From assembly GCA_003235365.1 (NCBI GenBank), contig QJWJ01000438.1, positions 1-64,000 on the forward strand: a DNA stretch of 64,000 bases, written 5' to 3'. This document shows positions 35,052-59,778 of the stretch, piece after piece. Below the pieces are notes generated by a model, which was given only the letters and a program-made list of their open reading frames with translations, had not been told where the DNA came from and made no database searches. The first letter of the stretch is position 1. The number at the start of each line of letters is the position of its first letter. The DNA is from Deltaproteobacteria bacterium (lineage in GTDB: Bacteria; Myxococcota_A; Polyangia; Polyangiales; Polyangiaceae). The position numbers were made by a program, and so were the translations under genes.

Positions 35052-38000
35052 ATGCCCGAGGGTTCGACCCACACAATCATCCACGCGGTGCAAGAACGGT
35101 TGAAGGGCGTTGCCGGGCGTGACGTGGGCGTTGACGAGTTGGCCCAAGAGGCCGTCGAGCTGGCCAGGCTCTTGCTGCAGCTGTGCGAAACTCAGACCGA
35201 TGACCGCGATCGGGAGCAGTTTGCCGTGCTGTCGCGCATGATGGACGATCCGCGAGGCCAGATCTTCACTACCTACTTGACGGATCGGGCCTACCGCTCG
35301 AAGTCGAAGCGACGGGCCGTGGAGCAAGCGCGCTACCTGCTCGAAAAGGTCGGTGCACCGCGATATGTTGGTCCCCTGGAGCGAATGGGGCTGAGCGCAT
35401 TGCGCAACGTCGGTACCTGGTTGCCGACGCTGAGCGGTACCGCGATGCTCAACCGCATTCAAGACGAGACCAGCGCGTTCATTCTTCCGGCGGGGAAATC
35501 CTTCGACGAGTACTTGCAACGGCGAAGGGCACAAGGCGTGCTCGTCAACGTGAACCACCTCGGTGAAGAGGTGCTGGGGGAACGTGAGGCGGAACGCCGA
35601 GTCGATGACTACGTGAAGCTGCTGCAGCACCCGGACGTCGAGACCATCAGTGTCAAAGTCTCGTCGATATTCAGCCAGAGCAGCCCATTGGCCTTCGACC
35701 GCGTCGTGGATGCCGTGAGTGAGCGGCTGAGGCCGATTTACCGCGCTGCGTTGGACAACGAGTGTCGCGGCGGTGGCGGCAAGCTCGTGATGCTCGACAT
35801 GGAAGCGTATCGCGACTTGCAGGTAACACTTGTGGCGCTGCAGCGGGTGTTGAACGAGAGCGATTTTCTGGGCGCTCGCGCTGGCGTGGCGCTCCAGGCG
35901 TACCTGCCGGAGTCCACGACTCTCTACGGGAAACTGGTCGAATGGGCGTCGGCGCGACGCGCTCGGGGTGGCGCGCAGTTTCGCGTACGGGTCGTCAAGG
36001 GGGCGAATCTCGCGATGGAGACCATCGAGTCGGCGATTCGAGGGTGGCCCTCTCCCATCTATTCGACGAAGCTCGAGGTCGATGCCAGCTACAAGCGCGT
36101 GCTCTTGCTCGCAACGGAACGCAACAGCACCGCGTCGGTCGACGTCGGAGTTGCCAGTCACAATCTGTTCGATGTTTGTTTCGGTCTGCTGCGCCGTTCC
36201 TCCAACCAGGTTGAACCCCACGTGTCCTTCGAACTGCTCGAGGGCATGGCCAACCCGTTGCTGCGGTCGTTGCGCCTACTCGGTGCCGACGTCTTGGTGT
36301 ACGCGCCGTTCGTCGGCGAGCACGAGTTCCCGAGTGCCATTGCCTACCTGGTTCGACGCCTGGATGAGAACACATCCGCACAAAACTACCTGCGGCACAG
36401 CTTTGAGATGCGCGTGGATAGCGAGGCGTTCATCGATCAGCAGAAGCAGTTCTGTGACGCGTGCGGGGCGATTTCTGTGGTGGGCAGTGAGCGACGTCGC
36501 ACGCAGGACCGCAGTCGCGCACAGGCCGGCCCGAGTGCTGAGTCCCAGTTCGTCAACGAACCGGACACGGACTTCACCCTGGCCGCCAATCGACAGGCGC
36601 TGGGCGAGTGGATGCAACGTACGCGCGATGGTTGGTTCGAGGTACACTCGCACGTTGCTGGTAGGCAGGTACGCCGAGACAACGCGCAAGTGGGGGTTGA
36701 CCCGTCGCGTCCCGGTCATCAGCCATATCGGGTTGAGCTGGCGGGACCTGGCGACATCGAAGCTGCGCTGCGGTGTGCGGCGGATGCGCACTGCGTCGAT
36801 CCGCTGGTGCTCAGTGCCGCAGCGGAACAGCGGCGCCAATGGCTGCGGGCAGCCGCTCAGCGTCTACGCGACGCTCGATGCGAGTTGATCGCCTTGATGG
36901 TCCTCGATGCCGGAAAACGTGCAGAGGAAGCGGACGTCGAGGTTTCCGAGGCGATCGATTTTGCCGAGTACTACGCGCGTTGCCACGCGCAGCTCGAGCG
37001 CTTACCCGGGGCGGTATTGAACGCTCGGGGGCCGGTCGTCGTTGCGCCGCCGTGGAACTTCCCTTTGGCGATCCCACTCGGTGGGGTGTTTGCAGCGTTG
37101 GTAGCAGGCAACCCCGTCATCCTCAAGCCCGCGCTGGAGACCCCGCTCGTTGCACGCCGCGCCTGCGAATTGCTGTGGGAGGCGGGAGTGCCGGAGAACC
37201 AGCTCCAATTCGTCGTTTGTCAGGACGATGTTGCGACGCCGCTGATCACCGACGAGCGAACCCGTGTCGTCGTGCTGACGGGCGCGACGAGCACAGCGCG
37301 GATGTTTCTGGATCTTCGCCCCGAGCTTCGCTTGTTGGCAGAGACCGGCGGCAAGAACGCGCTGTTCATCTCCGCCATGTCCGACCACGAGCAAGCCATT
37401 GTCGACGCGATTGCCTCTGCGTTCGGTCATGCGGGCCAGAAGTGCAGCGCCGCAAGTCAGTTGATAGTCGATCGCGAGCTATACGACGATGCAGAGTTCT
37501 TGGCGACTCTCGCTGACGCGGCGAGCAGCCTCGTGGTCGGTTCGGCGTGGGACTTGGACACCGTGGTTACACCTCTGATCGCCCCTCCGTCGGCCCTGCA
37601 ACGAAAAGCGTTGACGACGCTCGAGCCCGGCGAGAGCTGGCTCGTGCAACCACGATTCGATTCGAATAACCCGCACTTGGTCAGTCCCGGGATCAAACTC
37701 GGCGTACGGCCCGGAAGTGCCACGCACACCACCGAGTTCTTCTGTCCGTTGCTCGCCGTATTGCCGGCGAAAGACGTCGCCGACGCCGCGCGCATCGCCA
37801 ACTCGACGCGCTACGGGCTGACGGCGGGTATCCACAGTCTGGACGAGCGCGAGCAGGATTTGTTCATCGACGCGATTGAAGCAGGGAACGTCTACGTCAA
37901 CCGCAAGATCACCGGAGCGATCGTTCAGCGCCAACCCTTCGGCGGCTGGAAAGAATCCAACTTCGGGCCGGGAGCAAAAGCTGGGGGACCGAACTACGTC

Positions 38001-38627
38001 GCGCAGTTTCACCGTATCGAGAGCAGCGAGGAGCCGGGGTCGACCGCTGCGTCGGTGTCGCTGCCCTCTCGGATTGCGAGCTGGGTCGAACGGGCGAGCG
38101 TCGAATGGCCACACATGCGCGTCCCGCTGACGACGATCGCTCGCAACTACGTGCGTGATCACACGTGTTGGTTCGTCAGCGGACACGATGCCACGGCGCT
38201 CGTCGGGGAAGACAATCTGTTGCGCTACCGGCCGTTGCGTGGTGTCGCGCTCGTGATCGATGAGAACACGCCCGAACGCGATGTCGCGATGGTCGCCCTC
38301 GCCGCTGCGGTGGTGGAATGCCCGCTGACGGTGCTCGTGTTGGCTCAGCGGCGGCAAGCGTTCCTTCAGATGTTGAATCCTGTGGCTGTCTCTGACGACG
38401 AGGCTCTGCTCGAGGCGCTCGACGGGATCGACGTCGAGCGGATTCGCTGCCTGAAAGCGCCGTCTGAGGCGCTGCTGCGGATGAGCCACCGCAGCGCGTG
38501 GCACGTCAATACCGAACCCCCGAGTCCGCTGGGTCGGGTCGAGTTACCGAACTACTTGCGCGAGCAAGCGGTGAGTGTCGTGTACCATCGCTACGGGCAC
38601 TTGGGGCTGCGCGGGCTGCATCAATGA
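35052..38627 (+). CDS. putA: Bifunctional proline dehydrogenase / L-glutamate gamma-semialdehyde dehydrogenase (PutA-type)
   Basis: PRODH region 'VNVNHLGEEVLGEREAERRVDDYVKLLQ...SVKVSSIF', 'RVRVVKGANLAME'; ALDH region 'GPVVVAPPWNFPLAIPLGGVFAALVAGNPVILKP', 'LLAETGGKNALFIS', 'FGHAGQKCSAASQL', 'TRYGLTAGIHSLDEREQ', 'FGGWKESNFGPGAKAGGPNYV'. No N-terminal RHH domain. Confidence 0.9.
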   Translation: MPEGSTHTIIHAVQERLKGVAGRDVGVDELAQEAVELARLLLQLCETQTDDRDREQFAVLSRMMDDPRGQIFTTYLTDRAYRSKSKRRAVEQARYLLEKVGAPRYVGPLERMGLSALRNVGTWLPTLSGTAMLNRIQDETSAFILPAGKSFDEYLQRRRAQGVLVNVNHLGEEVLGEREAERRVDDYVKLLQHPDVETISVKVSSIFSQSSPLAFDRVVDAVSERLRPIYRAALDNECRGGGGKLVMLDMEAYRDLQVTLVALQRVLNESDFLGARAGVALQAYLPESTTLYGKLVEWASARRARGGAQFRVRVVKGANLAMETIESAIRGWPSPIYSTKLEVDASYKRVLLLATERNSTASVDVGVASHNLFDVCFGLLRRSSNQVEPHVSFELLEGMANPLLRSLRLLGADVLVYAPFVGEHEFPSAIAYLVRRLDENTSAQNYLRHSFEMRVDSEAFIDQQKQFCDACGAISVVGSERRRTQDRSRAQAGPSAESQFVNEPDTDFTLAANRQALGEWMQRTRDGWFEVHSHVAGRQVRRDNAQVGVDPSRPGHQPYRVELAGPGDIEAALRCAADAHCVDPLVLSAAAEQRRQWLRAAAQRLRDARCELIALMVLDAGKRAEEADVEVSEAIDFAEYYARCHAQLERLPGAVLNARGPVVVAPPWNFPLAIPLGGVFAALVAGNPVILKPALETPLVARRACELLWEAGVPENQLQFVVCQDDVATPLITDERTRVVVLTGATSTARMFLDLRPELRLLAETGGKNALFISAMSDHEQAIVDAIASAFGHAGQKCSAASQLIVDRELYDDAEFLATLADAASSLVVGSAWDLDTVVTPLIAPPSALQRKALTTLEPGESWLVQPRFDSNNPHLVSPGIKLGVRPGSATHTTEFFCPLLAVLPAKDVADAARIANSTRYGLTAGIHSLDEREQDLFIDAIEAGNVYVNRKITGAIVQRQPFGGWKESNFGPGAKAGGPNYVAQFHRIESSEEPGSTAASVSLPSRIASWVERASVEWPHMRVPLTTIARNYVRDHTCWFVSGHDATALVGEDNLLRYRPLRGVALVIDENTPERDVAMVALAAAVVECPLTVLVLAQRRQAFLQMLNPVAVSDDEALLEALDGIDVERIRCLKAPSEALLRMSHRSAWHVNTEPPSPLGRVELPNYLREQAVSVVYHRYGHLGLRGLHQ

Positions 38628-38872
38628 ACCGGAGTCGTATCGGCCCAGAACAATCTCGCGGCCGACGGCTATTCGAGGGCGCGCGACCTTTTGTACTCGT
38701 TTTCTTCGATCGGGTGACCCGCTGGCGCCTGGCCACGCGTCTGTGATGCATTTCCCGCTGCCCTGAAGCGCGCCCCAAGAAGCCCCCACTGGGTTCCAAG
38801 CGCCCGTGTTGCATTTGTTCGCGGAACTAGCTGCATTTGGGGACGGGCTGGGCGATTGTACGTTCGAAGAAC

Positions 38873-40327
38873 ATGACCGAAGAGTGTTTTCCCGATGAAT
38901 TCGTGTGGGGTGTTGCGACTGCGGCCTACCAAATCGAGGGTGCGGTAACCGCAGACGGTCGTGGCCCGTCGGTTTGGGACATGCTCTGCCGCAAAGAGGG
39001 CGCAATTTGGGCGGGTCACGATGCGGACGTGACGACCGACCACTACCACCATTGGCGGCAGGACGTGGCGCTGTTTCGCGAACTCGGAGTTGGCGGCTAC
39101 CGGTTCAGCATCGCTTGGCCGCGTGTGCAGCCCGACGGCGTCGGTGCCGTCAACGACAAGGGGTTGGGGTTCTACGATCGCCTCGTGGACACGCTACTCG
39201 AAGCGGGGATAACCCCCTATGCGACACTCTTCCATTGGGACATGCCGTTGGCCGTCTACCATCGCGGCGGCTGGTTGAACCGGGACGTGTGCGGCTGGTT
39301 TGGTGACTACGCCGAGGTCGTCGTCAAGGCGTTGGGTGACCGCGTGCACCACTGGCTGACGCTCAACGAGCCGCAGGTGTTCGTTGGTTGTGGGCACTAC
39401 GATGGGCGCCACGCCCCAGGGGTGCGGTACTCGATGAGCGAGATGCTTCGCTGTGGGCATCACGCTTTGCTCGCGCACGGGCACGCGGTTCAGCGCATCC
39501 GTGCGCATGCCGCCAGCGCTCGGGTTGGCTACGCGCCGATGGCGTTCCCGAAAGTCCCGAGAACCGAGGCTGACGAGGACGTTGCGGCGGCGTATCGGAT
39601 TTTCGGGAGCATGCGGCAAGCCACCCACTGGAACCTGCCTTGGTGGACGGACCCAGTCGTCTTCGGTGAGTATCCCGAAGACGGCTTGCGTGTTTTCGGC
39701 AAGGACGTGCCCGCGTTCCCTTCGTCTGATCTGGCGCAAATCAACCAACCCATCGACTTCTTGGGGCTCAATCTCTACGACGGCCAGGTAGTCGTCAGCG
39801 GTGCAGATGGGGAAGCAGAAGTCGTGCCGCATCCGCCTGGGGCCCCCATCACGGGGTTCAACTGGCCGATGACCCCCGAGGCCATGTATTGGGGACCGAA
39901 GTTCGCCTATCAGCGCTACGGTAAACCCATCGCCATTACAGAAAATGGCGTTTCGCTGCGTGATTGGCCGTCGATGGACGGGCGTGTTCATGACCCGCAG
40001 CGTGTCGACTTTCTCAACCGCTACTTACGCAACTTGCACCGCGCCGTGGCAGAGGGCGTTCCGGTCGAAGCCTACTTTCACTGGTCGGCGCTCGACAACT
40101 TCGAATGGGCGGATGGCTTCCGCGAGCGTTTTGGGTTGATTCACGTCGACTATCAGACCGCCAAACGCACACCCAAGGACTCGTACTACTGGTATCGGCG
40201 GGTCATCGAAACGAACGGTGCAGCGCTCTTGGGCGTCGAGGCGGCAAGTGCCTACACGCAGCGCTTCGAAGTGGAGCGCAAACGAGTCGCCTCGATCCTC
40301 GAGGCGTTCCCCAACGCGGATCGGTGA
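38873..40327 (+). CDS. GH1 beta-glucosidase
   Basis: ATG 38873; 'FVWGVATAAYQIEGA', 'GVGGYRFSIAWPRVQPDG', 'LTLNEPQVF', 'KPIAITENGVS', 'YFHWSALDNFEWADGFRERFGLIHVDYQTAKRTPKDSYYWY'. Confidence 0.95.
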   Translation: MTEECFPDEFVWGVATAAYQIEGAVTADGRGPSVWDMLCRKEGAIWAGHDADVTTDHYHHWRQDVALFRELGVGGYRFSIAWPRVQPDGVGAVNDKGLGFYDRLVDTLLEAGITPYATLFHWDMPLAVYHRGGWLNRDVCGWFGDYAEVVVKALGDRVHHWLTLNEPQVFVGCGHYDGRHAPGVRYSMSEMLRCGHHALLAHGHAVQRIRAHAASARVGYAPMAFPKVPRTEADEDVAAAYRIFGSMRQATHWNLPWWTDPVVFGEYPEDGLRVFGKDVPAFPSSDLAQINQPIDFLGLNLYDGQVVVSGADGEAEVVPHPPGAPITGFNWPMTPEAMYWGPKFAYQRYGKPIAITENGVSLRDWPSMDGRVHDPQRVDFLNRYLRNLHRAVAEGVPVEAYFHWSALDNFEWADGFRERFGLIHVDYQTAKRTPKDSYYWYRRVIETNGAALLGVEAASAYTQRFEVERKRVASILEAFPNADR

Positions 40328-40619: not shown

Positions 40620-41807
40620 ATGACTGTTTGGGGAAGTATCTCGGTTGCGTTGGCTGGCGTGGCGGTGCTGGGTGTCCTGCTCAGCGCTGTGTGCCATTGG
40701 CGCCTGTGGTGGGTATTGCGTGGACGCCGGCTCGGTGCCAAGTCGACCGATCGGGTGACGGTGCTCAAGCCACTTTGCGGAGCGGATGCAGGGCTGGACC
40801 GAAACCTGGAGGCGTTTGCGCATCAAACCTATCGCAACTTGGAGATCGTGTTTGGCGTTGCCTCGTCGAGTGACGAAGCGCTGCCCATCGCGTTGCGCTT
40901 CTGTCGCGACCATCAGGGCGTTACTGGTGCGGTCAGTGTTGGCGAAGCGGCGTCGGTGTTGAACCCGAAGGTGGCATTGCTTCAGCGCATGGCGTCCAAA
41001 GCAGAAGGGCGGTGGCTCGTCGTTTCCGACTCGAACGTGCGGGTGGAGCGCGACTACGTCGAACACGCGATGAGCCACGTCGCGCCGGATGTCGGGTTGG
41101 TGACCCATGTCGTTGCAGGCAAGGGTGGGCGCTCTCTCGCGGCTCGCTGCGAGAACTTGCAGCTCAATTGCTTCGTCGCGCCGGCGTTGTGTGGGGCCGG
41201 TTTCCTGGCGGGGCGCACCTGCGTGATCGGAAAATCGATGTTTCTGCGTCGAGAAGCGCTCGATGCCATCGGCGGATTCGCCTCTGCCGGTGGCTACCTC
41301 GCTGAGGATTACGCGATTGGTCAAGCGGTGGAGAAGGCGGGCTATCGGGTGATGCTCGCCAGTCGCCCGGTGGTCGGGTGGCACGAGGGGTGGTCGTTTT
41401 CGCGTTTCGTGAATCGACACCTGCGTTGGGCGATCATGCGACGACAGGTGTCGAAGGCGGGATATCTGCTCGAACCGCTGTTCACCCCAGGGCCGATCTT
41501 GACATTTGCCTTGCTAGCGGCCCTGGTCGCGCCCGAGCCGCACTTGAACATCGGTGCCGTGTGCAGTGCACTCGCACTGAAGTACGGCCTCGATGCCCTG
41601 ACCTACGCCAAACTGACGGGCGAGCGGCTACCGTTGTCGGTGTTTGCGATCAACCCGTTCCGCGAGTGGTTGACGCTCGCGGTTTGGGCCCTAGGCTGGT
41701 TCACTCAAACGATTCACTGGCGGGGCAAGCCATATCGCGTCGTAGCGGACAGTGCGCTCGAACCGGTGAACTCGTCGCTCGAGGCTGAGGTTGGTGATGA
41801 AGTCTGA
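40620..41807 (+). CDS. Ceramide-glucosyltransferase-like GT (GT21 type)
   Basis: 'RVTVLKPLCGADAGLDRNLEAFAHQTYRNLEIVFGVASSSDEAL', 'VLNPKVALLQRM', 'LVVSDSNVRVERDYV', 'GKSMFLRREALDAIGGF', 'LAEDYAIG', 'RHLRWAIMRR' ((Q/R)xxRW-like); TM regions. Confidence 0.8.
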   Translation: MTVWGSISVALAGVAVLGVLLSAVCHWRLWWVLRGRRLGAKSTDRVTVLKPLCGADAGLDRNLEAFAHQTYRNLEIVFGVASSSDEALPIALRFCRDHQGVTGAVSVGEAASVLNPKVALLQRMASKAEGRWLVVSDSNVRVERDYVEHAMSHVAPDVGLVTHVVAGKGGRSLAARCENLQLNCFVAPALCGAGFLAGRTCVIGKSMFLRREALDAIGGFASAGGYLAEDYAIGQAVEKAGYRVMLASRPVVGWHEGWSFSRFVNRHLRWAIMRRQVSKAGYLLEPLFTPGPILTFALLAALVAPEPHLNIGAVCSALALKYGLDALTYAKLTGERLPLSVFAINPFREWLTLAVWALGWFTQTIHWRGKPYRVVADSALEPVNSSLEAEVGDEV

Positions 41808-43113
41808 TGTGGTCGTCGCGAGCGTAACGATGGGCTACGGCCACCTGAGGGCGGCCTGGCCAATCGCTGACGCATTGGGAGTAGCGGTGACTACGGTGGA
41901 CGAGCCACCCATGGCCGACTCGCGCGAAGTGTCGTTGTGGCGCATGTTGCGGCGCTTGCACGAGGTGCTGTCCAAGCCGTTGCCGGTGTTGTCGGCTTTC
42001 GACGGCGCGACACGCGGGATGATGGACGCGTTGACGATGATCCCACCGTTGCACGAGCCGCGGGACCACCGTCGGGCGAGCTGGTCGGTGCGCTTGCTGG
42101 AGATGTTGATCGAGCGCGGGCTGGGTCAGGGGCTGGTCGAGCAGCTGCAGCGCACCGGCGCGGCATTGGTGACTACCTTCTACGCTCCCGCCATCGTGGC
42201 AGATCGAGCGGGTATCGAGCGTGTGTACTGTGTCGTCACCGACGCCGATTGCAATCGTGTTTGGGCGCCCAAAGACGCTGCGCGCACCCGAATCCAGTAT
42301 TTTGCGCCGAGTCGACGGGTCGTGCGTCGCCTGTTGTCGTTCGGAGTGCCGGACCGCAACATCACGCTCACTGGATTCCCGCTACCCGAGCTACTGACTG
42401 AAAGCTCGGACACGACCCGCCCCGAGCAACGACTTGCGCGCACCATCGAGCGTCTCGACCCGCGCGGCGTCTTTCGAGAGCTTCATGGTACCGAGCTGGA
42501 GCTGATCAGCCGCGGGACGCCTCCTGCGCGCGATCCCGGTCCGATCCATTTGATGTTCGCAATAGGTGGAGCTGGTGCACAAGCGGAGATGGCGGACCGC
42601 TTTCTGCCAGCGCTGCGCCCGCGCATCCTCGATGGCAGCCTACGCCTGCAGCTCGTTTCAGGAACGCGGCGCGAGGTGACCAATTCCTTCTTGGACTCGG
42701 TGCGCTTCAGCGGTCTGGACACGGAGCTCGATCGGTCGATCGACATCATCTGTGCCGAAGACTTCTTGTCGTACTACCGCGCGTTGAACGTTGCCTTGCT
42801 GCAGACTGACGTGTTGTGGACGAAGCCGAGCGAAATGGGCTTTTATTCCGCGCTCGGTTTGCCGTGCATCATCGCCCCGCCCGTCGGGGCGCATGAACGC
42901 TACAATCGACGCTGGTTGCGTGAGCAAGGCGCGGGGTTGAAACAGCGGCGCCTGGATCACGCGCTGGGTTGGTTCAACGAGTGGCTCGAGGACGGAACGC
43001 TCGCCGGTGCCGCATGGTCGGCGTATGCGCGGCTGCCGAAACACGGCACGCGCAAAATCGTGGAGGCTGTGGCGGGTCAACCGCAACGCGCCGCCGTCTC
43101 CGCGGGGGAGTGA
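41797..43113 (+). CDS. GT-B-fold glycosyltransferase-like protein (MurG/MGD-synthase-like)
   Basis: 'ASVTMGYGHLRAAWPIADAL' N-term and 'DVLWTKPSEMGFYSALGLPCIIAPPVGAHERYNRRWLREQGAGL' C-term; overlaps the preceding GT gene. Confidence 0.6.
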   Translation: MKSDVVVASVTMGYGHLRAAWPIADALGVAVTTVDEPPMADSREVSLWRMLRRLHEVLSKPLPVLSAFDGATRGMMDALTMIPPLHEPRDHRRASWSVRLLEMLIERGLGQGLVEQLQRTGAALVTTFYAPAIVADRAGIERVYCVVTDADCNRVWAPKDAARTRIQYFAPSRRVVRRLLSFGVPDRNITLTGFPLPELLTESSDTTRPEQRLARTIERLDPRGVFRELHGTELELISRGTPPARDPGPIHLMFAIGGAGAQAEMADRFLPALRPRILDGSLRLQLVSGTRREVTNSFLDSVRFSGLDTELDRSIDIICAEDFLSYYRALNVALLQTDVLWTKPSEMGFYSALGLPCIIAPPVGAHERYNRRWLREQGAGLKQRRLDHALGWFNEWLEDGTLAGAAWSAYARLPKHGTRKIVEAVAGQPQRAAVSAGE

Positions 43114-43334
43114 CGTCCTGGCGAGCGCATCGCTGGTGCGCACACGTGGGTACAGGTGCTCCGCCGTTCGGCGCGTCGTGAATTGGCCCCGCGCCCACGC
43201 CGCGTGGAAAGAAACTGCGGGCCCCTGCTGGGGGTGTGTTAGCGTCCCGAGCCCGTTCGGTTGTACCGGCCTTGCCGGCGCGGGAGCGGGAGGCGTCAGC
43301 TACAACTCGTCGAATCCTGGAGGAGGACTCTCTC

Positions 43335-44243
43335 ATGCGTCACGTGGTAACCATCATGCTCGGAGCTCTGTACTCGCTTGCCTGCGGAGGCGGTCAGCCC
43401 GCGGCGACACCTGACGACGAGATGACCCCACCGGCCGCCGAACGAGAGCCGCCCTCCTCGCAGCCGGAGGCGAGTGACGACGGCGTCGGGCAACCCACAT
43501 CTGCCGCCGCGCCCGCGCCGGCCGAAGGGAGCACTGGTGAGGGTGGGTTCGTCCTCAACGATTCGACGAGCGCCAAGGATGCTCACGGTGCGACCGAATC
43601 GAAGATCAAGCCGTCGAAGACCGAAGCTGCGCTGAAGTTCATCGTGGTCGACAAAGAGAAAGGCCCGATCGAAGGTATCGTGATCGCGTTGGCAGGGCCC
43701 GACGGCAAGAAGTTCTACACCAAAGAGACGGACTCGACCGGCTACAGCGAGGTGCTCGTACCCGTCGGCAAGAAGTACGGCATCGTCTACTTGAGCTTGG
43801 GGCGTCAGGAGATCACTACCTCGGTGGACGTCACTGACGAGCCCAACCAGAACATCCGCTTGACGCTTCGCTACAAGCGCTGGGAGGGCAAGAAGAAGGG
43901 CGAGCACGAGCGCTTCGTTCTGAGTGGGGTCACCTTCGATACCGGCAAGGCAACCATTCGGCCGGATTCGTTGCCGCGACTGGATGGTGTCGTCGAGTTC
44001 ATGACGCACAAACCCAGCGTGCGTATCGAGATCTCGGGACACACGGACAACGTCGGTAATCCCAAATCGAACAAGGCGCTCTCGGAGAAGCGTGCCCAGG
44101 CGTGCCGCGACTACTTGATCTCGAAAGGCATTGAGGCCAGCAGGATCGAGGCGGTCGGGTATGGCGACGAGCGTCCGATTGCGAGCAACGACACGCCCGA
44201 GGGACGACAGCAAAACCGGCGTATCGAGGCCACCGAGCTTTGA
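43335..44243 (+). CDS. OmpA-family C-terminal peptidoglycan-binding lipoprotein
   Basis: ATG 43335 with AGGAGG just upstream; 'SLACGGG' lipobox; 'VLSGVTFDTGKATIRPDSLPRLDGVVEFM...RIEISGHTDNVGNPKSNKALSEKRAQACRDYLISKGI...GYGDERPIASNDTPEGRQQNRRIE'. Confidence 0.93.
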   Translation: MRHVVTIMLGALYSLACGGGQPAATPDDEMTPPAAEREPPSSQPEASDDGVGQPTSAAAPAPAEGSTGEGGFVLNDSTSAKDAHGATESKIKPSKTEAALKFIVVDKEKGPIEGIVIALAGPDGKKFYTKETDSTGYSEVLVPVGKKYGIVYLSLGRQEITTSVDVTDEPNQNIRLTLRYKRWEGKKKGEHERFVLSGVTFDTGKATIRPDSLPRLDGVVEFMTHKPSVRIEISGHTDNVGNPKSNKALSEKRAQACRDYLISKGIEASRIEAVGYGDERPIASNDTPEGRQQNRRIEATEL

Positions 44244-54687: not shown

Positions 54688-54704
54688 TGACGTTAAATGA
54701 CGTT
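54688..54704. promoter_or_regulatory. Direct repeat TGACGTTaaaTGACGTT (10-bp period) at the 5' end of the SulP gene
   Basis: TGACGTT at 54688-54694 and 54698-54704. Confidence 0.45.
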
Positions 54705-56499
54705 CCTGGACAGCCCCCGACCCGCTCAGCGCCCCATGGCACGAACCCGCTATTGGGCAGAAACGAAGTCATCTCAAGCAGTTGTGCTTCCAGGCGCGAC
54801 GCTCGTCGCGGCGCTGCGAAGTGGATACGGTTTGGCCGATCTGCGTCGCGACGCGATGGCGGGCGCCGTCGTGGGTGTCGTCGCCCTGCCGCTCGCAATG
54901 GCGCTGGCCATCGGTGTCGGGGTGCCGCCCCAGGCCGGGCTGGCAACGGCGATTGTGGCGGGTTTCTTGGTCGCTGCGCTCGGCGGCTCGCGTACTCAGG
55001 TGACTGGGCCGACTGCGGCGTTCATCGCGATCCTTGCTCCCATCTACACGCAATCGGGCATGGCTGGACTGCTCATCTCCGGGCTGATGGCGGGTGTGCT
55101 GCTGATTGCCATGGGCTTGCTGCGATTGGGGCAACTGATTCGCTTCGTACCGCATCCAGTGACCACCGGCTTTACCGCAGGGATTGCGACGGTCATTGCG
55201 GTACTGCAGCTCAAAGACTTCTTCGGTTTGGAGCTGGCGGACAGCCCGACGCACACGCTCGAACGTTTGGCGGTGATGAGCGAAGCGCGACACACCGCCA
55301 GCGTCGCCGAGACGACGATCGGGGTGGTTACTCTATTGCTACTGATACTGTGGCCCAGAGTGACGCGGCGCGTGCCAGCGCCGCTGATTGCGCTGCCCGT
55401 CGCTGCGATCCTGGCCTGGTCGTTGTCGCGTTGGTTCCCGACGTTTTCAGTCGCGACCATCAATAGTCGCTTTCACACGCGCGTGGGTGAGGTTGTGTTC
55501 GACGGGATACCGCGCTTGCCACCCTTGCCGTCATGGCCTTGGGATTCTCCCGGACCACTCGGCGCGTCGCTGAGCTTTTCGCTCGACGAGCTGCGCTCGC
55601 TATTCGTGGGCGCGCTGGCGATCGCGTTGCTCGGCGCGATCGAGTCCCTATTGTCGTCCATGGTCGCCGATGGCATGGCCGGTACCAAACACGACCCCGA
55701 TGCGGAACTGGTTGCTCTTGGGATCGGTAACCTGGTTGCCCCGTTTTTTGGAGGCATTGCCGCAACCGGCGCCATCGCCCGCACGGCCACGAACGTCCGC
55801 AACGGCGCGCGGTCACCCGTTGCGGCGATGATTCACGCCGTCACTGTTCTCGGCGCGGTCTTGGCGTTTGCGCCTTTGTTGGGGTTGTTGCCCATGGCGT
55901 CGCTGGCGGCGCTGTTGTTGCTCGTCGCGTGGAACATGTCGGAGCTGCGCCATTTTGGGCACATCCTTCGCGTGGCGCCGAGGAGCGACGTTGGGGTGCT
56001 GCTGGTTTGCTACGGGTTGACCGTGGTGTTCGACATGGTCGTTGGGGTTGGGGTTGGCATGGTGCTCGCGGCCTTCTTGTTCATGCGGCGCATGGCGCAA
56101 GTGACCGAAGCACGGGTCACCGCTGACGGCCACGAATTGGCGCGAGGTCCTTTGCCTCCCGGCGTCGCCGTGTACCAGGTATCTGGTGCGTTGTTCTTCG
56201 GCGCTGCGCAGAAAGCCGTCTCTGCGCTCGAAGTCGTGTCGAGTGACACCCGCGCCGTGGTGCTCGCGCTCGACGCCGTGCCTGTCATGGACGCCACGGG
56301 GCTCGTCGCGCTCGAAAGCGCCGTCGCGATGCTCAATGGACGCCGCTGCTTGGCCGTCTTGTGCGGTCTCCAGCCACAGCCACACGCGCTGCTGGACAAG
56401 GCAGGGTTGCTGGTCCGACCCCTCGTTGCTCACTGCGAGGACCTCGAGTCTGCGTTGGCGATTGCGGCAGAACACGTACCAAATAAAACCCGGTCCTGA
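54697..56499 (+). CDS. SulP-family anion transporter with STAS domain
   Basis: 'DLRRDAMAGAVVGVVALPLAMALAIGVGVPPQAGLATAIVAGFLVAALGGSRTQVTGPTAAFIAI', 'GIGNLVAPFFGGIAATGAIARTATNVRNGARSPVAAMIHA'; STAS 'VVLALDAVPVMDATGLVALESAV'. Confidence 0.95.
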   Translation: MTFLDSPRPAQRPMARTRYWAETKSSQAVVLPGATLVAALRSGYGLADLRRDAMAGAVVGVVALPLAMALAIGVGVPPQAGLATAIVAGFLVAALGGSRTQVTGPTAAFIAILAPIYTQSGMAGLLISGLMAGVLLIAMGLLRLGQLIRFVPHPVTTGFTAGIATVIAVLQLKDFFGLELADSPTHTLERLAVMSEARHTASVAETTIGVVTLLLLILWPRVTRRVPAPLIALPVAAILAWSLSRWFPTFSVATINSRFHTRVGEVVFDGIPRLPPLPSWPWDSPGPLGASLSFSLDELRSLFVGALAIALLGAIESLLSSMVADGMAGTKHDPDAELVALGIGNLVAPFFGGIAATGAIARTATNVRNGARSPVAAMIHAVTVLGAVLAFAPLLGLLPMASLAALLLLVAWNMSELRHFGHILRVAPRSDVGVLLVCYGLTVVFDMVVGVGVGMVLAAFLFMRRMAQVTEARVTADGHELARGPLPPGVAVYQVSGALFFGAAQKAVSALEVVSSDTRAVVLALDAVPVMDATGLVALESAVAMLNGRRCLAVLCGLQPQPHALLDKAGLLVRPLVAHCEDLESALAIAAEHVPNKTRS

Positions 56500-57623: not shown

Positions 57624-57963
57624 AGGACGCGCGGCGTCGGGCTCGACGTGCTGCGACGGCGAAGCGCGGTACGTGACGCGACAGCGGTACTCGACCAAAG
57701 CAAGACAGTTCGATCAGTGCCGTTGAAATCTTGCCGTATGCGTCTGTGTGCGGCCCCGCCCTGTTCGCACTTCAGAAGGTCACCGGTTCGGAGGAGTCGC
57801 GGTTTTGTCGCCAGAGGGGTCATGCGGTGATCGTCGGCGAGCGGGCCCGGCATACTACTGACACCGATTTTTCATGCGAAAGCCCGCTCACTCCCGTTTC
57901 GTTGCGGGAGCCGACCGCCGCCCGTGGCGTCGAGCGCGCCGGGCATCACCGAGGTTTCTGGCA

Positions 57964-59778
57964 ATGAACATTACAAGGGCATCGATCTGCAGCACTTGGC
58001 TCCTGGTGTTGGGTGTGGCGTGCGGGGACACTCAGAACGACGGGTCGAACGATGGTGTCACCACCGGCGATCCGAGCGCGACGGGTCCCACCGCTCCGGG
58101 CGGCACCGACGGTGTGACCAGTGGTGATCCAACCGGCGGCGCGTCGCCGACGCTGCCCGGCCCTCCAGGCGTCGGTTCCGGCGCCGGCCCCGACAACGGC
58201 CCAGGAATTGGCGTCGGGCCCACGGCCTCGGCGCCCGGTGCCGGGGTTGGCCCGACCGCCGCTGGACCTGCGACGCAGACCCCCACGGATACGCCCATCA
58301 CCAATCCGCCCCCCGGTGCGGGAGGCGCACCGAACGTCCCGACGCCGGTAGCCGCCGGAGGTGACACCTCGGGTGAAGCGGGCGGTCCCTCCGTGCCAGC
58401 CCCCGAGCCCGAGCCGGTGATCCGCCCGTCGTTGGTCACGTCGGGCCAGAACGCCTACTGGGTCGAGGGCGAGCTGACCGAAGCGTCGGGGAGCGCGCAG
58501 GTCAGCGTCGATACCGGCACGACGTACCAGGAGTGGCTCGGCATGGGCGGTACGTTCAACGAGGCAGGCTGGGATGCGCTGAGCGTCATCGACCCCGCGG
58601 AACGCGACCGCGCCGTGCGCCTGTTGTTCGACGCCGCAGAGGGGGCCAACTTCGCTTGGGGGCGTTTCCCCATCGGTGCTAGCGACTACGCAATGGATCG
58701 CTATTCCCTCGACGACCACGATGGCGACTACGAGATGGCATCCTTCTCGATCGATCGCGACAAGATGATGCTGATCCCGTTCATCGAAGCGGCGCTCGAC
58801 GTCAACCCCGATCTGCGCTTGTGGGCCAGCCCTTGGAGCCCGCCGGCATGGATGAAGGTCAGCGGTAACATGAACGGCTTGGTGAACGACAGCGACAGCG
58901 GCGCTCGAATCAAGAACGAAGCGCCGGTATTGACCGCCTACGCACTGTACTTTGCGCGATTCATCGAGGAGTACGCCAAGATCGGCATCGAGGTCGAGTC
59001 GATTCAGCCGCAGAACGAACCAGGGTACGCAACGCGTTACCCGTCGTGCTTGTGGACCCCGGAGCTGCTTCGCGACTTCGTGCGTGATTACCTCGGACCA
59101 ACCCTCGAAGAGCACAGCCTCGACACGGAGATCTGGCTCGGCACGATGTCTGCGCCCGAAGACACACAACACGTGCAGACGCTGATGAGCGATGCCAATG
59201 CGGCCAAGTACATCAAGGGCATTGGGCTGCAGTGGAACACGATGGGCTCGGTGGGAACCTACGCGTCTCAGTACCAGGTGCCGGTGATGCAGACCGAGCA
59301 CAAGTGTGGCAACTACCCGTGGGAAAGCGCCTCGTTCAATGCCGACCGCCCGCCGAACGATCATGCATACGCGGTGGAAAGCTGGGGCTACATCCGCGAT
59401 TGGATCAAGGCTGGCGTCGCGTCGTACAGCGCTTGGAACATGGTGCTCGACACAAAGGGGCAGAACCTCGACGTAGAACGACCCTGGCCGCAGAACGCGC
59501 TGCTCACCGTCGACCGCGGGACGAAGGCCCTGACCGAGACACCTGCGTACTACGTGTTCCGGCACGTGTCGTACTTCGTCGACCCGGGCGCGATGCGCGT
59601 TGCCACGACGGGCAACGCCGATGCGCTCGCCTTCGAAAACCCCGACGGCAGTCAAGTGGCGATCCTGCACAACTCCGGTGGCTCCGATCAGCAGACGACG
59701 CTGGGCATCGGCGGCAAGACCGTTCAGTTTTCGATTCCGGCGCGCGGCTGGGCAACCGCGTTTTGGAAAGCCGAGTGA
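57964..59778 (+). CDS. GH30 (glucosylceramidase-family) lipoprotein with Gly/Pro/Thr-rich linker
   Basis: ATG 57964 with 'LLVLGVACGDT' lipobox; 'WASPWSPPAWMKVSGNMNG', 'IQPQNEPGYATRYPSCLW', 'MQTEHKCGNYPWE', 'SYSAWNMVLD', 'YYVFRHVSYFVDPGAMRV'. Confidence 0.88.
   Translation: MNITRASICSTWLLVLGVACGDTQNDGSNDGVTTGDPSATGPTAPGGTDGVTSGDPTGGASPTLPGPPGVGSGAGPDNGPGIGVGPTASAPGAGVGPTAAGPATQTPTDTPITNPPPGAGGAPNVPTPVAAGGDTSGEAGGPSVPAPEPEPVIRPSLVTSGQNAYWVEGELTEASGSAQVSVDTGTTYQEWLGMGGTFNEAGWDALSVIDPAERDRAVRLLFDAAEGANFAWGRFPIGASDYAMDRYSLDDHDGDYEMASFSIDRDKMMLIPFIEAALDVNPDLRLWASPWSPPAWMKVSGNMNGLVNDSDSGARIKNEAPVLTAYALYFARFIEEYAKIGIEVESIQPQNEPGYATRYPSCLWTPELLRDFVRDYLGPTLEEHSLDTEIWLGTMSAPEDTQHVQTLMSDANAAKYIKGIGLQWNTMGSVGTYASQYQVPVMQTEHKCGNYPWESASFNADRPPNDHAYAVESWGYIRDWIKAGVASYSAWNMVLDTKGQNLDVERPWPQNALLTVDRGTKALTETPAYYVFRHVSYFVDPGAMRVATTGNADALAFENPDGSQVAILHNSGGSDQQTTLGIGGKTVQFSIPARGWATAFWKAE

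Follow-up and report, generated by a model that had tools for sequence, protein, structure and literature searches.

A recurring GT21 and DUF6938 gene pair as a candidate two-step glycolipid pathway in Myxococcota and Acidobacteriota

Bacteria use glycosyltransferases of more than one family to place sugars on neutral lipids. The rhizobial Pgt enzymes belong to family GT21; they make glycosyl diacylglycerols and prefer diacylglycerol over ceramide (PMC8231724, PMC3972451). A predicted Pho box lies upstream of pgt in Agrobacterium tumefaciens (PMC3972451). In Caulobacter, two glycosyltransferases, Sgt1 and Sgt2, act in sequence on one lipid, ceramide, under phosphate starvation (PMC6445935). 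Sgt1 and Sgt2, as well as the ceramide glycosyltransferase of B. fragilis, are described as GT4 enzymes (PMC6445935, PMC9692976). The gene pair analyzed here, from a member of the Myxococcota, resembles each of these systems in part. Compared by description, Pgt of A. tumefaciens and Mesorhizobium loti is like the GT21 protein of the pair in being a bacterial GT21 with a neutral-lipid acceptor, presumed in our case, and in its link to phosphate, which some relatives' GT21 loci share. Pgt, however, adds successive sugars to diacylglycerol alone, whereas here a separate GT-B enzyme is paired with the GT21. Sgt1 and Sgt2, likewise compared by description, offer the precedent for two sequential enzymes but differ in being GT4 enzymes acting on ceramide. 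A first-pass annotation of this DNA assumed that glucosylceramide is what bacterial GT21 enzymes make, a premise that the work on Pgt shows to be too narrow.

The window, that is, the whole stretch of 64,000 nucleotides that was analyzed, comes from a genome of 10.4 Mb in 546 contigs that is 96.5% complete. It contains the two open reading frames previously noted, and they do overlap (Table 1). Gene 1 ends with the TGA at 41805-41807, and the sequence GAGG is found a few bases 5' of the ATG of gene 2. The overlap suggests translational coupling. A scan for promoter and terminator consensus sequences gave no match. The flanking glycoside hydrolase family 1 and OmpA-domain genes were considered as pathway members and rejected, the former because it is not among the conserved neighbors of the pair, the latter because it is not kept beside the pair in other paired loci. 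The hydrolase gene is probably a separate unit. Elsewhere, the window encodes a PutA-type fusion of proline dehydrogenase and aldehyde dehydrogenase (1191 aa, 35052-38627) and a glycoside hydrolase of family 30 (57874-59778), with a sulfate permease gene nearby (54697-56499).

Table 1. The gene pair and its immediate neighbors in the window
Feature	Coordinates	Strand	Remarks
Gene 1: GT21-type (GT-A fold) membrane glycosyltransferase	40620..41807	+	395 aa, ATG start
Gene 2: GT-B glycosyltransferase, DUF6938 family, UgtP/MGD1/MurG-like	41797..43113	+	438 aa from ATG 41797
Overlap of gene 1 and gene 2	41797..41807	+	11 nt, read directly from the sequence
Glycoside hydrolase family 1 gene, upstream of gene 1	38837..40327	+	292 bp gap to gene 1; PF00232, 477 bits
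OmpA-domain protein gene, downstream of gene 2	43236..44243	+	PF00691, 86 bits

Gene 1 encodes a GT21 protein, scoring 148.8 bits against Pfam Glyco_transf_21 (PF13506; cut-off 21.7). The GT21-like motifs claimed for it are in place, with KPL at residue 50, NPK at 115, SDSNVRV at 136, LAED at 227 and RHLRW at 266. The catalytic acidic residues and the (Q/R)xxRW motif of the family are conserved as D85, D137 of SDS, D230 of ED, and R266xxRW270. By hydropathy, both the N-terminus and the C-terminal third contain hydrophobic segments. A structure model built from four sequences reached a middling pLDDT of 73.6 (the other four models reached 46-51), so its matches, which are GT-A synthases, are used for fold class only. 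A family profile built from six of the linked GT21 proteins finds the animal ceramide glucosyltransferase 26qf over nearly its full length with 222 bits, HpnI-type proteins about as well (210-241 bits), and alphaproteobacterial GT21 proteins slightly less well (177-194 bits). The eukaryotic ceramide glucosyltransferase shares with gene 1 the family, the acidic residues and the RxxRW motif, but only 22% identity; identity to plasmid-borne alphaproteobacterial GT21 proteins is 23-29%. In a tree, the GT21 proteins of Myxococcota and Acidobacteriota stand apart from HpnI proteins linked to hpnJ/hpnK and also from a group of animal and alphaproteobacterial proteins; the window protein itself is a long branch among open forks, without a firm position. 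The distances from the clade to HpnI, to animal ceramide glucosyltransferase and to alphaproteobacterial GT21 are about equal; sequence thus settles the family but not the acceptor.

Gene 2 is a member of DUF6938 (PF22053, 48.7 bits, cut-off 27), and so are all 18 alignment members of the GT-B set. Our literature search found no paper mentioning DUF6938. The AlphaFold model of gene 2 (mean pLDDT 87.7) has a GT-B fold and bears out the earlier description of the protein as MurG/MGD-like: in a Foldseek search, the best solved match is MGD1 (4x1t, E 6e-8), MurG is matched too, and UDP-GlcNAc 2-epimerases are likewise similar in fold. The motifs MGYGH12-16, D149xD151, GGAGA257-261, KPSE343-346 and E367xxN370 are invariant in the 18-member alignment. 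Gene 2 thus has the GT-B fold with the GxGH and ExxN active-site motifs of the MGDG synthase/UgtP type (GT28), the N-terminal GxGH and the C-terminal TKP and ExxN being shared with UgtP, MGD1 and MurG. It differs from these enzymes in belonging to DUF6938 and in scoring below the cut-offs of MGDG_synth (17 bits, cut-off 25) and of diglucosyl diacylglycerol synthase (PRK13609, 25.8 bits, cut-off 500). A profile of that alignment finds, as the nearest match by sequence, the processive diacylglycerol beta-glucosyltransferase (UgtP) of S. aureus, 9wde, with an E-value of 1.9e-11. Both proteins of the pair, then, retain the catalytic residues of their own family and match lipid glycosyltransferases.

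DUF6938 GT-B genes are rare. They were found in 2 of 59 genomes searched, one being the window's own, and phylum-wide in 9 of 379 genomes, with three of these matches being weak; a scan of named genomes turned them up in Myxococcota, in Acidobacteriota and in small genomes of candidate phyla. Neighbor clustering of 25 GT-B loci identified GT21 as the sole neighbor that recurs across lineages (6 loci); other neighbors repeat within close groups only. The six paired loci belong to Myxococcota and Acidobacteriota and show three arrangements: tandem in the window, L043 (G193) and L069, divergent in L056 and L068, and convergent with overlapping ends in L045/L133 (G390). A strong GT21 of this clade is present in 9 of the 25 GT-B genomes, six of these nine proteins being members of the GT21 profile itself, and it adjoins the GT-B gene in 6 of the 9. 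The linkage of the two genes is therefore conserved, a point on which the first-pass annotation had made its reading depend. Homologues in other phyla and adjacency in 6 of 25 loci confirm that the pairing is far above chance, and neither chance nor simple descent readily accounts for its appearance in three arrangements. Because the pairing recurs across lineages, a two-step glycolipid pathway can soundly be inferred. DUF6938 GT-B genes also occur in very small genomes of 0.7-1.2 Mb (L062, L063, L064, L066, L067), mostly of named candidate-phyla bacteria (Parcubacteria, Uhrbacteria, Jorgensenbacteria). These genomes contain neither serine palmitoyltransferase (SPT) nor a convincing GT21 of this clade, and a small cupredoxin-like lipoprotein turns up nearby in three of the small-genome loci.

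Phosphate-regulon genes lie beside the locus in five relatives (L068, L133, L116, L124, L135); none was found near the pair in the window, and most GT21 relatives have none nearby. In G390 (L133), whose locus is paired, a gene for a PhoB-type regulator precedes GT21 in the same orientation, 86 bp away. In L068, genes for PhoU, a PhoB-type regulator and a histidine kinase come after the pair, and in G010, G004 and G002 pst, phoU or phoB genes are found within ~6 kb of GT21. By a rough hand estimate that assumes one pho locus per genome, these 5 cases compare with ~0.1 expected among ~41 loci, although one family accounts for three of them and the independent number is thus nearer three. Genes for phosphatases and lipid enzymes are also found. 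A PAP2 phosphatase gene abuts GT21 in L068 and, in L069, lies between the two genes (GT21-PAP2-GT-B), its end overlapping the start of GT-B. A metallophosphoesterase gene adjoins GT21 in L114 and L124 and the pair in L132, and is found close to GT21 in L116; a Ppx/GppA phosphatase gene is nearby in L056. In three Anaeromyxobacter-type loci (L051, L052, L055), a lone GT-B gene is followed by a gene for a PlsC-type acyltransferase, checked by Pfam in L051. Such enzymes act in the handling of glycerolipids and phosphate. The pair in the window has no neighbor of these kinds, which plainly limits the argument. A phosphate porin suspected from the sequence of L068 had no Pfam match and is not claimed.

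Taken together with the enzyme families, these neighborhoods point to a coupled two-step synthase of a neutral-lipid glycolipid, with diacylglycerol likelier than ceramide as the acceptor and a role when phosphate is scarce, a reading whose chances we consider about even. The GT21 and GT-B proteins would be made as a translationally coupled pair and work at the cytoplasmic membrane. Held there by its hydrophobic segments, the former would begin the synthesis by transferring one sugar from a UDP-sugar donor onto the hydroxyl group of a neutral lipid, for which diacylglycerol is a likelier candidate than ceramide. The latter, a putative peripheral enzyme of the UgtP/MGD1 kind, would then extend this product by a second sugar, so that a diglycosyl lipid with beta linkage results. 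The GT21 clade probably serves to supply phosphorus-free glycolipids in place of phospholipids under scarce phosphate; in the window organism, such phosphate control is presumed from the relatives. The order of the steps, the sugars, their anomers and the acceptor are likewise predictions. The pair may represent a pathway of Myxococcota and Acidobacteriota that has not been described, in which GT21 and the DUF6938 GT-B, sometimes with a PAP2 lipid phosphatase, build a phosphorus-free diglycosyl lipid and DUF6938 is a new family of lipid glycosyltransferases; we hold this broader proposal tentatively, as somewhat less than an even prospect. If true, it would give DUF6938 a function and provide candidate genes for the glycolipids of myxobacteria and Acidobacteriota.

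The first-pass annotation had proposed a glycosphingolipid pathway, of which the two-step glycosylation of a lipid stands as likely, given the lipid-type families, the overlap and the conserved linkage. The sphingolipid assignment is not supported. A ceramide pathway is possible for the pair, and a set of genes that could feed it, which had been called for as a check, does exist in the genome. Bacterial ceramide synthesis is typically encoded by genes for SPT, a GNAT-type ceramide synthase and an epimerase/reductase-type ceramide reductase, and this layout is seen on contig C267. An SPT-like gene there, with NF047600 as its best model (445 bits, below the strict equivalog cut-off of 640), adjoins a GNAT-type (acyltransferase-like) gene and an NAD-dependent epimerase/reductase gene. 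With such an operon, ceramide is probably available to the cell. The pair could then turn dihydroceramide into a mono- and then a di-glycosylated ceramide. The nearly full-length profile match to animal ceramide glucosyltransferase, motifs nearer to the ceramide type than to the HpnI type, clear SPT genes in the paired genomes G407 and G418 as well as in the window's own (G000), and the two sequential ceramide glycosyltransferases known from Caulobacter (PMC6445935) all favor this.

The distribution of the genes argues against it. Among 58 relatives, 9 have both GT21 and SPT, 20 GT21 only, 14 SPT only and 15 neither (29 genomes with a strong GT21 of the clade, 23 with an SPT orthologue, one a fragment). 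These counts show no association (Fisher p 0.28, odds ratio 0.48, phylogeny ignored), although the result depends on the SPT score line, G020 with 367 bits being scored as without SPT. The GT21 clade thus does not track SPT, as a clade of ceramide glucosyltransferases would be expected to. The paired genomes G390 and G419 have no SPT orthologue, and G193 has a weaker family match only. In 39 GT21 or GT-B neighborhoods, no SPT, GNAT or reductase gene was found beside either gene; as described above, relatives' neighborhoods point to phosphate metabolism instead. In the papers found, moreover, the ceramide glycosyltransferases known from bacteria are described as GT4 enzymes. We therefore regard the synthesis of glycosylated ceramides by this pair as doubtful. 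A bacterial GT21 in an SPT-positive genome should not automatically be called a glucosylceramide synthase, and glucosylceramide-type annotation has already been given to alphaproteobacterial genes that adjoin metallophosphoesterase genes.

Three such genes (L108, L109, L110) are plasmid-borne, annotated as ceramide glucosyltransferase and followed by other glycosyltransferase genes. The gene directly before each is annotated as UDP-2,3-diacylglucosamine diphosphatase and is, in L108, a metallophosphoesterase by Pfam, so that these alphaproteobacterial GT21 genes also come after a metallophosphoesterase-type gene. Their ceramide glucosyltransferase label may be wrong. The GNAT gene was rejected as a marker of ceramide synthase; it is found in 57 of 59 relatives, with or without SPT, and being near-universal it is not diagnostic. 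In the cluster on C267 (L041, 6714-10851), the SPT-like gene carries a long N-terminal extension of ~190 residues, and the same contig stretch holds a gene for a type III secretion-type ATPase.

The two enzymes might also have separate jobs, with GT21 making a monoglycosyl lipid and GT-B glycosylating something else, for instance a glycan precursor that is polyprenyl-linked or destined for the envelope. In 16 of 25 genomes, among them the SPT-less small genomes of candidate phyla, the GT-B gene is present but a strong GT21 of this clade is not; the GT-B protein thus does not have to use what GT21 makes. Its fold also resembles MurG and the UDP-GlcNAc 2-epimerases. Adjacency in 6 of 9 genomes and three orientations, together with the 11-nt overlap, nevertheless speaks for a shared pathway, and the closest sequence match of the GT-B protein is an enzyme that glycosylates diacylglycerol. 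Separate roles are accordingly unlikely, and we prefer the coupled synthesis of a diglycosyl lipid.

That gene 1 encodes HpnI, the enzyme that attaches N-acetylglucosamine to bacteriohopanepolyol in bacteriohopanetetrol glucosamine biosynthesis, is scarcely credible and was rejected: HpnI belongs to the same superfamily and is the best NCBIfam model for gene 1, but the score of 221 bits is below the equivalog cut-off of 310, the HpnI-type motifs DSD and GQT/GST are absent, the clustering with HpnI against which the early reading had been hedged is not seen in the tree, and neither HpnH (best 54 bits, cut-off 225) nor squalene-hopene cyclase (best 69 bits, cut-off 431) was found above cut-off in the 96.5% complete genome. 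A weak partial match to squalene-hopene cyclase lies in a 798-aa frame on contig C306 (19226-19657), which maybe encodes another triterpene cyclase.
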